A stretch of 64,000 bases of DNA from assembly GCA_030549795.1 (NCBI GenBank), contig JAUQQO010000010.1, positions 62,001-126,000 of the forward strand. The letters run 5' to 3'. Below the pieces are notes generated by a model, which was given only the letters and a program-made list of their open reading frames with translations, did no database searches and had not been told where the DNA came from. The translations under genes were made by a program, and so were the position numbers. This document shows, piece by piece, positions 30,068-49,901 of this stretch. Each line of letters opens with the position of its first letter. The stretch's first letter is position 1. The stretch is from Pseudomonadota bacterium. Lineage in GTDB: Bacteria > Pseudomonadota > Alphaproteobacteria > Geminicoccales > Geminicoccaceae.

Positions 30068-30365
30068 AGTGGGGGGCTTCTGTTGCCCGGCGCCCCCCGA
30101 GCCGCGCTTACCTAATCGAGATCAGGCAGCGAGCGCCAGACGATTGTCGTTGGCACTTGTGGGTTTGGCCCGATAACGGCGGTACCATGCCGGGCGAAAG
30201 CTGCCCCTTTACTGCGCGCGTCGAACCTAACTCGCCCCCTCAACAGCCGGACCCGCGCACCGCGCGTGATCCGGCTCGCCATTGGTGGAGGCGCCGGGCT
30301 CTGCCCCCGGGTCCGCGACGCCTATTCCGGGCAGGGTTCATCGCCATCTCCGGCTCAAGCCGGCT
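30068..30365 (-). ncRNA. ssrA: Two-piece (circularly permuted) tmRNA
   Basis: The gene reads on the minus strand in permuted order. The acceptor piece ends in CGCCTCC-A-CCA (30293-30283) with CCA encoded, preceded by a 5-bp T stem (30310-30306 with 30298-30294). A 43-nt intervening segment follows. The coding piece begins GGGGGCG (30239-30233), which pairs with CGCCTCC and places a G-U at the third pair, the alanine identity element. GGTTCGACG, typical of the tmRNA 5' domain, follows. The tag frame 30154-30122 encodes [10 protein letters not shown] and stops with TGA. A terminal hairpin GGGGGGC/GCCCCCC is at 30098-30071. The outer ends are estimates. The seven-nt T loop is GGCAGAG, not the usual TTCRA. 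Confidence 0.88.
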
Positions 30366-30370
30366 CCCCC

Positions 30371-30398
30371 AATATAGGCACTCGTCACCGGGCCGCAA
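30371..30398 (-). promoter_or_regulatory. Predicted sigma-70 promoter of ssrA
   Basis: On the minus strand TTGCGG (30398-30393) and TATATT (30376-30371) are separated by 16 nt. The -10 box matches five of six consensus positions. Transcription would begin near 30365, just before the acceptor piece of the tmRNA. The divergent gene thyX starts at 30539, so the two promoters share this region. Confidence 0.5.
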
Positions 30399-30538
30399 CC
30401 ACCCCGGCGAGAAAGAGCGACGGGGAAAGAGCTGGGCCCGGCGGGGAAGAGGCCGGTCTCGGCCCCGATCGCCCGACTTGCACGGCCGATGCGGGGCGCT
30501 CACAACAACCCTCCGTCAGCCGACGGGAGAACCCTTGC

Positions 30539-46482: not shown

Positions 46483-47433
46483 ATGGCGGCCGAGCGACGG
46501 GTCCGGCTCGCGATCCTCGGCTCCGGTCCGGCCGGCTACACGGCGGCGATCTACGCCGCGCGCGCCGGCCTCGCGCCGTTGCTCGTGCAGGGTCTGCAGC
46601 CCGGCGGACAGCTCGCGATCACCACGGAAGTGGAGAACTTCCCGGGCTTTCCCGAGCCGATCTTGGGCCCCGAGCTCATGGAGCGGATGGCCGCGCAGGC
46701 CCGCCGCTGCGGAGCCGAGCTCGTGGCGGATGTCGCGGTCGCGGTCGCGCTGCACGAGCGGCCGTTCCGCATCCTCCTCGACAGCGGCGATCGGATCCTT
46801 TGCGATGCCCTGATCATCGCAACCGGAGCGCAAGCGCGCTGGCTCGGCTTGGAAAGTGAAACGCGCTTTCGCGGCTTTGGGGTGTCGAGCTGTGCCACGT
46901 GCGACGGCTTTTTCTTCCGCGGGCGCACCGTAGCGGTCGTGGGCGGCGGCAACACGGCGGTGGAAGAGGCGCTCTATCTTTCGCGGTTGTGCGCGAAGGT
47001 CTACCTCGTCCACCGCCGCGACGCGCTCAGGGCGGAAAAGGTGCTGCAGGAGCGGTTGTTCGCCGAGCCCAAGATCGAGCCGGTTTGGAACCATGTGGTC
47101 GAAGAGATCCTCGGCAGCGAGGAGCCGCGGGCGGTCACGGGCGTGCGGCTGCGCCATGTGCACACGGGCGCGCGGCGCGAGCTGGCGGTTGAAGGCGTGT
47201 TCGTCGCCATCGGCCACGATCCCGCCACTGCGCTCTTTAAGAACCAACTCGACATGGACGCCGAGGGCTATATCGTGACCCCGCCCGGGAGCACGCAGAC
47301 GAGCGTGCCGGGCGTCTTCGCCTGTGGGGACGTGCAGGACAAGCGGTTCCGGCAGGCGGTGACCGCTGCGGGCAGCGGATGTATGGCGGCGCTCGAAGCC
47401 GACCGCTGGCTCGCCGAACTGGGGGCGACTTGA
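46483..47433 (+). CDS. trxB: Thioredoxin-disulfide reductase
   Basis: This 316-residue flavoprotein reduces thioredoxin with NADPH. FAD-binding GSGPAGYT is at residues 13-20, the redox-active CATC at 137-140, the NADPH-binding GGGNTAVEEALYL follows, and the late FAD motif is GVFACGDVQD. It is the partner of TrxA encoded at 8162-8485. The ATG start is 19 nt after greA. Confidence 0.97.
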   Translation: MAAERRVRLAILGSGPAGYTAAIYAARAGLAPLLVQGLQPGGQLAITTEVENFPGFPEPILGPELMERMAAQARRCGAELVADVAVAVALHERPFRILLDSGDRILCDALIIATGAQARWLGLESETRFRGFGVSSCATCDGFFFRGRTVAVVGGGNTAVEEALYLSRLCAKVYLVHRRDALRAEKVLQERLFAEPKIEPVWNHVVEEILGSEEPRAVTGVRLRHVHTGARRELAVEGVFVAIGHDPATALFKNQLDMDAEGYIVTPPGSTQTSVPGVFACGDVQDKRFRQAVTAAGSGCMAALEADRWLAELGAT

Positions 47434-47470
47434 CGCGTTCGGTTCGTCTTTTCGGGGGAAGCCTTCGGGA

Positions 47471-48373
47471 ATGCTCGATTGGGACCGGGTGCGGATCTTT
47501 CACGTCGTCGCAGAGGCCGGCAGCTTTACCCGCGCCGCCGATCGCTTAGGCCTCTCGCAGTCGGCGATCAGCCGGCAGATCAGCGCGCTCGAGGAAGATC
47601 TGGGCGCACCATTGTTCCACCGTCACGCGCGCGGGCTCGTGCTCACCGAGCAAGGCGACATCCTGCTCGAAGCGGCGCGCGAGATCGCGCGCAAGATGGC
47701 CGCGGCGCAAACCGCGCTCAAAGAGAGCCGGGAAGTGCCCGCGGGACATCTGCGCGTGTGCACGACCGTTGGCGTCGGCACGGTGTGGCTTGCCTCCCAT
47801 CTCGCCGAGTTCCTCGACCGCTATCCCGAGATCTCGATCTCGCTCATCGTCACCGATGCCGAACTCGATCTCTCGATGCGCGAGGCGGATGTGGCGGTGC
47901 GCATGCAACGGCCGACCCAAGCCGATCTCATCCAAAGACGGCTTATGACGGTGCACACCCACATCTACGCCGCCCAGAGCTATCTCGAGCGCTATGGTGT
48001 GCCGACCTCGGTGGCCGATCTCGACCACCACCGGCTCGTCGCCTACAGCGACGATCCCAACCTCGCCGCCCAGCCCTTGAACTGGATCCTTTTTGCCGGG
48101 CGCGAGGAGGGCGAGGAGCGCCCCAGACGCGCGGCCCTTACCGTCAACAATGTCTACGGCATGCTGCGGGCCGTGCAGAGCGGGCTCGGGCTCGCCTCGC
48201 TTCCGGATTATCTCGCCACCAACGCCGGCAACCTCGTGCGGGTGCTGCCCGAACTCGAAGGTCCCAGCTTTACGGGCTACTTCGTCTATCCCGAGGAGCT
48301 GCGGAACTCCAAGCGGGTAGCGGTGTTCCGCGACTTCCTGCTCGAGAAGGTGGCCGCCCAGCCGGTCTGGTGA
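47471..48373 (+). CDS. LysR-type transcriptional regulator
   Basis: This 300-residue LTTR has an N-terminal winged helix-turn-helix (residues 1-60), with FTRAADRLGLSQSAISRQIS and LFHRHARGLVLTEQG. The C-terminal effector domain is of the periplasmic-binding fold. LTTRs usually control a divergent or nearby gene, but here the neighbours are trxB upstream on the same strand and a gene-free region downstream. The alphaproteobacterial trxB-lysR pair is frequent; the effector is unknown. Confidence 0.92.
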   Translation: MLDWDRVRIFHVVAEAGSFTRAADRLGLSQSAISRQISALEEDLGAPLFHRHARGLVLTEQGDILLEAAREIARKMAAAQTALKESREVPAGHLRVCTTVGVGTVWLASHLAEFLDRYPEISISLIVTDAELDLSMREADVAVRMQRPTQADLIQRRLMTVHTHIYAAQSYLERYGVPTSVADLDHHRLVAYSDDPNLAAQPLNWILFAGREEGEERPRRAALTVNNVYGMLRAVQSGLGLASLPDYLATNAGNLVRVLPELEGPSFTGYFVYPEELRNSKRVAVFRDFLLEKVAAQPVW

Positions 48374-48464
48374 GGGGCGCCGACCGGCTAGCCGCGCATT
48401 TTTGCATAGCTCTGTTGCAAGAGCGCACTAGCTGATGCGGGCCACCGGGCCTAAATGATGCGGT

Positions 48465-48617
48465 GCAGCACGGGCGGCTCTGGGTGTCCGTGCTAGCGCG
48501 GCGGCAGCCGCGCTCCGCAGGTGCGACGCCTGCGGGTCGGGATCTCCGGATCCCTTCCTCCCAGACGTTAGCCTCCCTGATCCACTTGGCCGAGTCGCGA
48601 GACTCGGCCCTTTTTTT
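48465..48617 (+). ncRNA. Candidate small RNA with tandem CCTCCC motifs
   Basis: Four consecutive perfect hairpins are packed into 87 nt: 48468-48493 (6 bp), 48495-48514 (8 bp with GGCA loop), 48515-48535 (7 bp) and 48539-48554 (6 bp with a TCCG tetraloop). An unpaired-looking stretch follows with two copies of CCTCCC (48557-48562 and 48572-48577). It ends in an intrinsic terminator (48588-48617). No protein frame fits. The CCTCCC copies are complementary to Shine-Dalgarno sequences, a feature of several alphaproteobacterial sRNA families. The 5' end is not located and no clear promoter is visible. The rest of 48374-48917 shows only the hairpin at 48638-48668. Confidence 0.55.
48588..48617 (+). 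terminator. Intrinsic terminator of the candidate small RNA
   Basis: A perfect 9-bp stem GGCCGAGTC/GACTCGGCC with a GCGA tetraloop is followed by C and seven T residues (48611-48617). It is 215 nt beyond the lysR stop, far for an mRNA terminator, which supports a separate transcript. Confidence 0.88.
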
Positions 48618-48637
48618 GCGCGCTACCGGAGGGAGGA

Positions 48638-48668
48638 GAGGGAGCTTTGCACCCGTTGCGGGTCCCTC
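48638..48668. other. Hairpin in the gene-free region
   Basis: GAGGGA (48638-48643) pairs with TCCCTC (48663-48668). Inside it CCCG/CGGG closes a TTG loop (48652-48662), leaving an internal loop on one side. The element follows a purine run GGAGGGAGGAGAGGG. No T-run or reading frame is attached and its role is unknown. Confidence 0.3.
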
Positions 48669-48917
48669 TTCCACCTGCGCCTGGTGAGGCATCCGGTCGC
48701 ACCCACTCGTAGGTCGCACCCTCTTCCGCGTCAAGCGCGTCTGCCCGGGAACGATCGTCTTTGCTGCAGCGCAGCATTCGCGGCGCCGGCGCGGGCGCTC
48801 GAAGCCGGCACGAGAATCGCTAGGGTAAGGCGCGTACCCGAAAAGCTGTTCAGCCAAAAGTTGATCGCCGGCGCCGCATGGCGCGACGGCGCGGCCGCGC
48901 TATGCGCGCGCGATCGA

Positions 48918-49901
48918 TTAGGGCTCAAAGATCAGAATGCTGTGCGGCACCTCGCCCGCCGGCACGCTCTTGAGCGGCTTGAGCGTCCTCGTGTCGATAA
49001 TGGTGATATCATCGGAGAGCCCGTTGGCCACCCAAAGTCGCGTCTCGTCACGGTTGAGGGCAAGCCCCCACGCCCGTCGACCCACGAGCACGTAATCGGT
49101 CACTTTGCGCGTCTTGACGTCCACTACCGCCACATGGTTGGCGCGGCCGAGCGCTACATAAGCGCGTGCGCCCTTGCTGTCGATGATCACGTCCACAGGT
49201 GTAATATTTTCTTTACGCAGTCCGCGATACTCGAACTCGATGGTATGGACGAGCTCGAGCTTGTCGACGTCGACGATGTCCACCATGCCGGCGATCTCGG
49301 CTGAAACCCAGAGCTCTTTGCCGTCCGGGGTGAGCGCGAGCCGGCGGGGGCGGGTGTTCATCACCAGATCCTTGATGATCTCCCCTTTCTCGAGATCGAT
49401 GACGTGCAACAGATTGGCCGCTTCCGAGACGACGAAGGCGAGCTTGCCATCGGGCGTGATGATGGCACCTTCGGGTTCCGGCCCGGTATCGAAGGCGGCG
49501 ATCTGCTGTCCGGTCTCGAGATCGAAGAGCGACGCCTGGCTGTCCTCCTCGTTCGAGACGAGCAGATAACGGCCGTTGGGATGCAAATAGTGCACCTCGG
49601 GATAGAGCACGTTGGGCAACCGTCGCACGAGCTTTTGCGTGTGCGTGTCGAAGACACCGATCATATTGTCTTCCGCACAGCACACCAAAAATTGCTGGCG
49701 ATCGAGCGTGAACACCATCCCACGCGGGCGACCACAGGCCGGCACCGTGCGCAGCACGTTGCCGTCGAGATCGAAGACCGTGAAGTTGCCGCTCTTCTCG
49801 TTGCTCACGATCGCGAAGCCCTGGCTCGCCTGGGCCGCGTAGGCCAAACTCAGCGCGAGCGCCGCCAGTGCCGAAGCGAGCCCGAGCGATCTGCCCGACA
49901 T
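48918..49901 (-). CDS. PQQ-dependent catabolism-associated beta-propeller protein
   Basis: This 327-residue exported YVTN-repeat beta-propeller has a signal peptide ending about AAQA. Seven repeats of about 40 residues follow, of the type LALTPDGKELWVSAE and VHYLHPNGRYLLVSN. This matches the family found beside PQQ-dependent alcohol dehydrogenases and Ped/Lut-type ABC transporters. It is proposed to be periplasmic and its exact role is not known. ATG 49901 has GGGGGAGG directly upstream. It opens the PQQ island and is divergent from the ankyrin gene. Confidence 0.82.
   Translation of the reverse strand: MSGRSLGLASALAALALSLAYAAQASQGFAIVSNEKSGNFTVFDLDGNVLRTVPACGRPRGMVFTLDRQQFLVCCAEDNMIGVFDTHTQKLVRRLPNVLYPEVHYLHPNGRYLLVSNEEDSQASLFDLETGQQIAAFDTGPEPEGAIITPDGKLAFVVSEAANLLHVIDLEKGEIIKDLVMNTRPRRLALTPDGKELWVSAEIAGMVDIVDVDKLELVHTIEFEYRGLRKENITPVDVIIDSKGARAYVALGRANHVAVVDVKTRKVTDYVLVGRRAWGLALNRDETRLWVANGLSDDITIIDTRTLKPLKSVPAGEVPHSILIFEP

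Follow-up and report, generated by a model that had tools for sequence, protein, structure and literature searches.

The window (the whole stretch of 64,000 nucleotides analysed here) contains, on the + strand between a LysR-type regulator gene and a convergent beta-propeller gene, a structured RNA that is real and well supported, the main evidence for it being comparative. An earlier note, made from the sequence alone, had proposed a structured, terminated and apparently non-coding RNA with an anti-Shine-Dalgarno (anti-SD) stretch, and our analysis bears this out: the four hairpins, the two CCTCCC copies 9 nt apart and the terminator all lie where the note placed them. We consider it probable that the locus encodes a trans-acting sRNA of about 155 nt with its own promoter, activated by a LysR protein and acting as an anti-SD RNA that covers ribosome-binding sites, like the AbcR and alpha-r8 RNAs. 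The features are the following.

46483..47433, + strand: trxB, thioredoxin-disulfide reductase (NCBIfam TIGR01292, 391.7 bits, cut-off 343.45)
47471..48373, + strand: LysR-type regulator gene directly 3′ of trxB, positional counterpart of vtlR/lsrB (Pfam HTH_1 and LysR_substrate)
48404..48418, + strand: candidate LysR-type operator dyad GCAT-N7-TTGC, about -59 to -45 from the predicted start (family upstream alignment, by eye)
48428..48433, + strand: putative weak -35-like element CTAGCT (CTAGC/CTGGC is conserved, 17 nt ahead of the -10-like block, by eye)
48451..48456, + strand: -10-like element CTAAAT (CTANNT block in most of 24 family sequences, by eye)
48463..48617, + strand: putative small RNA, about 155 nt (model R2 matches full-length in family loci; 5′ end predicted)
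48468..48493, + strand: hairpin H1, 8-nt loop GCUCUGGG (9/9 pairs changed on both sides, 34 sequences)
48479..48484, + strand: predicted pseudoknot 5′ strand UCUGGG, in the H1 loop (4/6 pairs changed on both sides)
48495..48514, + strand: hairpin H2 (8/8 pairs changed on both sides; weakest stem, 82.7% of cells paired)
48515..48535, + strand: hairpin H3 (8/8 pairs changed on both sides)
48539..48554, + strand: hairpin H4, loop UCCG (6/6 pairs changed on both sides)
48557..48562, + strand: first CCTCCC copy (not conserved as CCTCCC; 3/27 sequences of alignment A4)
48560..48565, + strand: predicted pseudoknot 3′ strand CCCAGA, in the linker (covariation, loop-linker permutation)
48571..48581, + strand: putative seed GCCUCCCUGAU (anti-SD), containing the second CCTCCC copy at 48572-48577 (identical in 27/27 of A4)
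48588..48617, + strand: intrinsic terminator, stem 48588-48609 and T run (5/8 counted pairs changed on both sides)

Evolutionary support for the hairpins and the terminator

We have evaluated the fold at two evolutionary depths. In an alignment of six sequences from the genus, 9 of 46 pairs have changed on both sides and 96.0% of cells are paired, values neither of which is reached in any of 500 shuffles, and the covariation signal is lost when the partners are slid against each other. One of the five measures, the number of further pair types, is not above the shuffles (483/500), and two H2 pairs are broken in three of the six sequences.

The family alignment, A7, is an alignment to a covariance model with E-values up to 1e-7 (34 matches). 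It replaced a first version, A6, whose 51 matches included antisense and partial ones, and from which 17 rows were dropped. A covariance-model alignment was used because MAFFT, applied to the family's 27 full-length sequences, put H1 in the wrong place in several rows. In A7, both sides have changed in 40 of 45 pairs (277 cells), and the share of paired cells is 93.4%; the shuffle means are 25.3 pairs, 75.7 cells and 71.7%, and none of 500 shuffles reaches the observed values. Being fitted to a model of those stems, the alignment leans towards the nested stems, and the stem counts have to be read with this in mind. The covariation of the four stems that the earlier note had proposed to look for in related genomes is thus found in both genus and family, and since the four stems covary, the region is conserved better than mere spacer.

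A single sequence says less. The strand from 48460 to 48622 has a folding energy of -90.2 kcal/mol, whereas its shuffles average -72.45 (z -3.72, 1 of 200 shuffles as good). The terminator stem is followed by a C and seven Ts (48611-48617), and a terminator scan taken alone is weak (two found in 47400-49800 versus 1.9 expected in shuffles). The hairpins had been described as four perfect ones; all four are present, and H1 falls short of perfect in having G-U pairs in its upper part. The loops of H1 to H4 read GCUCUGGG, GGCA, GCGAC and UCCG, and the CCUCC motif is in none of them.

That the region holds no protein frame, as the earlier note had it, is nearly right: a 74-aa frame on the + strand and a 195-aa frame on the - strand overlap it, and both are unlikely to be coding because the indels of the relatives in loops and linker are not multiples of three.

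A pseudoknot between the H1 loop and the linker

Comparison shows an H-type pseudoknot between the H1 loop and the linker. Four of its six pairs have changed on both sides in A7, in different genera, and 94.8% of cells are paired, which no shuffle out of 500 reaches. For this helix the alignment is unbiased, because both strands were unpaired in the fitted model. Examples of co-varying loop and linker are UCCGGG/CCCGGA, UCUGAG/CUCAGA, UCUGGA/UCCAGA and CCUGGG/CCCAGG. Slides by one column still give one and two pairs changed on both sides, the number of further pair types is not above the shuffles (181/500), and within the genus the pseudoknot pairs never vary.

A permutation of loops against linkers over 11 representatives gives 25 in 20000 as good as the cognate pairing, with several non-cognate pairs outscoring cognate ones and the best helix of L030 lying elsewhere than in the H1 loop. 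Among these representatives, L001, L003 and L016 share CCCAGA in different register. L003 also stands for the class of L024, L028 and L029, three loci without the pseudoknot that were kept outside the permutation.

All six pairs are formed in 24 of the 34 rows of A7. In each of those 24 rows the geometry is H-type: the pseudoknot strand directly abuts the 3′ arm of H1 (0 nt between them), with 2-5 nt left on its opposite side. The ten remaining rows include L020 and L023, where the register is off by one; L027, with five pairs; and L018, L048, L053 and L030, which are gapped or misaligned at this place. In L024, L028 and L029 the pairing is absent (L024 has a complementary GUCUGGG at another place in the sequence). 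By eye, the pseudoknot is found in 13 of 16 Geminicoccaceae genera, and these last three loci are the three genera without it.

In those three loci, a small hairpin sets CCCAGA opposite a neighbouring ACGUCU. The same local hairpin holds CCCAGA in all 26 class-wide loci, with ACGTCT itself in 22 of them. The simplest account, judging from these sequences, would be that the partner changed within Geminicoccaceae and that the three genera retain the older form.

One seed rather than two

The earlier note had counted two anti-SD motifs, and here the comparison changes the picture. The region of the second copy, GCCTCCCTGAT, is identical in all 27 sequences of A4. The first copy reads CCTCCC only in the window, L002 and L020, and 16 other words take its place in the remaining A4 sequences; its CCC starts CCCAGA, so that it overlaps the 3′ strand of the covarying pseudoknot, the partner of UCUGGG in the H1 loop. 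With one motif constant and the other varying, we infer a single seed, together with a pseudoknot strand that happens to read CCTCCC in this species. Motif counting in a single genome can mislead, as this first copy shows.

The constancy of the seed is partly a matter of selection, because the sequences were gathered with queries containing the core; the first copy lay in the same query and yet varied. The sequences of A4, and those used in scripts, were taken by patterns with CCTCCC or CCTCCCTGAT plus a T run. L019 and L015 are absent from this pattern-based set, presumably because L019 has no T run and L015 duplicates L014. In L048, which is outside A4, the first G of the seed is missing, and of the loci listed from outside the family, most read CCUCCCUGUU here. 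In the minimum-energy structure CCUCC falls in or near the loop of a weak hairpin with 5 pairs, GUUAG-CCUCC-CUGAU; since the seed sequence hardly varies in the family, covariation cannot speak for or against this hairpin.

Distribution and gene neighbourhood

The RNA had been called an orphan, and this does not hold: homologues occur throughout Geminicoccaceae, and the core is widespread in Alphaproteobacteria. A plain DNA search matched positions 11-178 of the 201-nt query in each of the other five genus genomes; elsewhere in the family it is chiefly the 3′ part that is retained (query about 117-182, window 48556-48621). Some match at an E-value up to 0.1 is found in all 31 genomes; those in G012 and G030 (E-values 0.06-0.08) are near chance, and that in G030 lies outside the core. 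The core is found in Geminicoccaceae including Arboricoccus pini and Marinimicrococcus flavescens, and the layout is present in the six genus genomes and across the family.

Model R2, of the whole RNA and built from the six genus sequences, gives 34 end-to-end matches in 32 family loci. It also matches end to end in 26 of 26 class-wide loci, where the shared core gives much of the score. A looser model of the 3′ core, R1, matches 212 of 385 alphaproteobacterial genomes at E-values up to 0.01, a count that takes in alpha-r8-type RNAs, as R1 reports four places in the source genome. Our search of the open-access literature returned nothing on a Geminicoccaceae small RNA and nothing on AbcR together with Rhodospirillales, and a search there by the letters of the core gave, among the matches listed, only papers unrelated by title.

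The source genome has one full copy of the RNA, and also an hfq gene. By tblastn, a lysR homologue adjoins the RNA in 22 of 30 Geminicoccaceae loci; for the other 8 there is none within 1.5 kb, a count limited in some cases by contig ends. Outside the family, lysR adjoins in 17 of the 26 class-wide loci, 11 of these 17 with trxB too (the 26 are the best-scoring of many, with 1.5 kb flanks). A locus of Marinimicrococcus flavescens (L011) carries three tandem copies of the RNA on the minus strand, at 836-1006, 1172-1342 and 1503-1673, about 330 nt apart, and has no lysR homologue in the surrounding 8 kb (L075). At gathering threshold, Rfam reports in the whole window only a tmRNA and one tRNA; the former is an alphaproteobacterial permuted tmRNA gene with a strong match (30068-30402, minus strand).

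Promoter and candidate control by LysR

From the -10-like block, we infer a transcript start near 48463; this block is out of register in L007 and L010. The published LsrB box, GCAT-N3-TG-N3-T (PMC8844928), has seven fixed letters, and the candidate operator dyad upstream shares six of them. Among 24 class-wide loci, 7 have the exact box upstream; shuffling gives a mean of 0.68, and none of 300 shuffle sets does as well. These seven loci represent five genera, and in one of them (L105) the box lies inside lysR; L098, outside the seven, has two boxes 3′ of lysR. In L014 and L015 we observe, upstream of the RNA, repeated ATGC/GCAT half-sites with A-rich spacers, perhaps a double LysR operator.

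In A. tumefaciens the gene order is trxB, vtlR, abcR1, abcR2, and VtlR activates abcR1 (PMC7486931). In S. meliloti the abcR1 promoter has its LsrB box at -61 to -49, AbcR1 is LsrB-dependent, and its anti-SD motifs repress transporter mRNAs (PMC8844928); as to an effect of LsrB on AbcR in this species, PMC7486931 reports none, whereas PMC8844928 states the opposite. LsrB activity is said to need the oxidation of two cysteines (PMC8844928). The LysR protein of the window has a single cysteine, and for this reason its signal may differ from that of rhizobial LsrB. Since the papers conflict on the range of LsrB (called unique to Rhizobiales in PMC11975290, whereas PMC7486931 describes the order trxB-vtlR as well conserved throughout the class), the identity of the window LysR protein with VtlR/LsrB is proposed here by gene position.

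Search for targets

The pattern TCAGGGAGG-N3-11-ATG, complementary to the seed, occurs at 25 places in the six genus genomes, 24 of them distinct (two share one site), and the reversed pattern at 1. At least 8 of the 24 distinct sites precede genes for solute-binding proteins by Pfam (L122, L132, L135, L136, L137, L138, L145, L146), the remaining sites having been assigned partly by Pfam and partly by eye. As a control, CGAGGGAGG has 85 places; of 30 checked, 5 are solute-binding by Pfam and the other 25, by eye, are not. A second control, TGAGGGAGG, has 22 places, none of them solute-binding by eye (one checked by Pfam), and it is biased against operon-first genes because TGA is a stop codon. 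Against the fairer control, CGAGGGAGG, the difference is small. The trend towards solute-binding proteins among seed targets thus failed its control, and because such proteins are frequent after the control site too, we claim neither enrichment nor a target. The start sites with AGGGAGG in the genus are preceded by CG (85) more than three times as often as by TC (25) or TG (22).

As an example, a LivK-like gene (L122) has a 10-nt match, AUCAGGGAGG, at its Shine-Dalgarno site. The sequence CAGGGAGG is kept in 4 of the 5 same-genus genomes with the gene start (the source, L125, L126 and L127, not L124; L130 is without the gene start); it also occurs in L128, and is absent in L129 and L131. This match fits the AbcR theme.

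Proposed mechanism and alternatives

If the locus acts as we propose, the product of the adjacent lysR gene, which occupies the position of vtlR/lsrB, would activate the RNA through the GCAT-N7-TTGC dyad. The RNA is predicted to bind Hfq at the U-tail of the terminator. Its seed would pair with Shine-Dalgarno sequences AGGGAGG preceded by AUC and block translation of a set of mRNAs, perhaps those of nutrient-uptake and periplasmic-metabolism genes, as for AbcR. The hairpin domain with its pseudoknot may stabilise the RNA, and by keeping the CCC of the first pyrimidine stretch paired, the pseudoknot would leave one defined seed presented.

A different origin of the same transcript is unlikely in our judgement, but has points in its favour: the lysR message could run to a shared terminator and a nuclease free its 3′ part, as with SorX, the hairpins being a stable mRNA 3′ end. 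The lysR gene is co-oriented, and within 47400-49800 the scan finds no terminator-like site after it other than the RNA's own. SorX of R. sphaeroides is such a 3′-UTR-derived RNA (PMC9438474), and its Rfam model (RF02784) matches weakly here, at 25.7 bits in the window and 42.4 in the best relative (L005, same genus), every locus tested scoring below the cut-off of 46.6. Against it we weigh the conserved -10-like block and upstream dyad just before H1 in the family, the 8 of 30 family loci where no lysR homologue lies within 1.5 kb (contig ends cut some of these short) and the three tandem copies in Marinimicrococcus. It is more improbable still that the hairpins are a sponge or a platform for a protein (Hfq, a CsrA-like or another protein), to which the CCUCCC seed would be secondary. 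Selection on the four stems is strong while little stem sequence is conserved, as such a role would have it; but sequence conservation is highest in the 3′ part rather than in the hairpins, and by eye no GGA pattern is constant in the loops.

Membership in the alpha-r8 family (mmgR/suhB), as a diverged form with a 5′ extension, seems doubtful to us. The alpha-r8 model RF00519 aligns over its whole length with 34.7 bits and an E-value of 1.8e-5, CCUCCC stands before the terminator, and the Rho-independent terminator follows the core as in alpha-r8 RNAs. On the other side, the score is below the gathering score of 41, and the alpha-r8 10-mer UUUCCUCCCU is absent, the RNA reading GUUAGCCUCCCUGAU instead. 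A separate RNA in the source genome (L061, C26:88007-88080) has the exact 10-mer UUUCCUCCCU and a different 5′ half, shared with relatives, so that both types coexist there. L061 itself scores only 29.6 bits, lower than the window RNA, so that RF00519 separates the types poorly and a distant common origin is possible; a further weak match, 28 bits, is at C11:45638-45705 (L062).

The reading we prefer, a LysR-activated trans-acting sRNA, may also be part of something wider, which we put forward only tentatively: an undescribed sRNA family throughout Alphaproteobacteria, tied to trxB-lysR, with rhizobial AbcR maybe a derived branch. In this family CCCAGA would always be held while its partner switched in evolution, being a local ACGUCU hairpin in loci of other families and the H1 loop in 13 of 16 Geminicoccaceae genera, where the pseudoknot spans three further hairpins. 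The lock would gate the neighbouring seed and be opened by Hfq, a target or a ligand. A swapped-partner pseudoknot of this kind would be a clear case of an anti-SD sRNA whose structure masks one of its two apparent seeds.

Comparison with known sRNA families

The AbcR RNAs, which have been described from families of Rhizobiales, have an important part in regulating nutrient uptake. If a conserved RNA occupies this trxB-lysR position also elsewhere in Alphaproteobacteria, in families other than those, the ancestry of the AbcR circuit would reach deeper and its core would become testable. The window RNA has in common with AbcR1 and AbcR2 the position after trxB and a LysR gene (vtlR/lsrB; orthology by position), an anti-SD stretch, a terminator as its 3′ end, and an LsrB-type box 50-60 nt before the start, here a predicted one. 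AbcR has two anti-SD motifs, aSD1 CUCCUCCC in a 5′ hairpin loop and aSD2 UUCCCCUC (PMC8844928), whereas the window RNA combines four hairpins and a pseudoknot with a single GCCUCCCUGAU ahead of the terminator. Alpha-r15 RNAs are described as multicopy in Rhizobiaceae and Brucellaceae (PMC3712013), and the window RNA is single copy in its genome. The alpha-r15 model (RF02345) gives no match at E-values up to 10 in 48370-48930, and none in the 31 genomes of the order or in the 289 of the class sample. The sequence thus gives no tie to AbcR; since this model is silent in the control genomes too, its sensitivity is unproven, and it neither supports nor excludes descent.

With alpha-r8 (MmgR, SisA-D) the RNA shares a CCUCCC stretch followed by a terminator. 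It differs from it in its sub-threshold score, the missing 10-mer and its gene neighbourhood, and it is about twice the length of the 77-nt MmgR (PMC7143759). SisA pairs, assisted by Hfq, near start codons, its core 10-mer pairing upstream of a start codon (PMC12559287). Alpha-r15 RNAs are said to share partial homology with RF00519 (PMC7143759).

SorX has a short 3′ module of similar sequence; it is 75 nt when mature, and comes from the 3′ end of the mRNA of an OmpR-type regulator (PMC9438474). SmelA075 and SmelA099 likewise have several hairpins and anti-SD motifs, but they carry CCUCCUCCC in each hairpin loop (PMC3927594), while none of the four loops of the window RNA does. Among the families compared here, the view of the earlier note that dense hairpins ahead of the motif are a layout unlike that of other CCTCCC RNAs stands.
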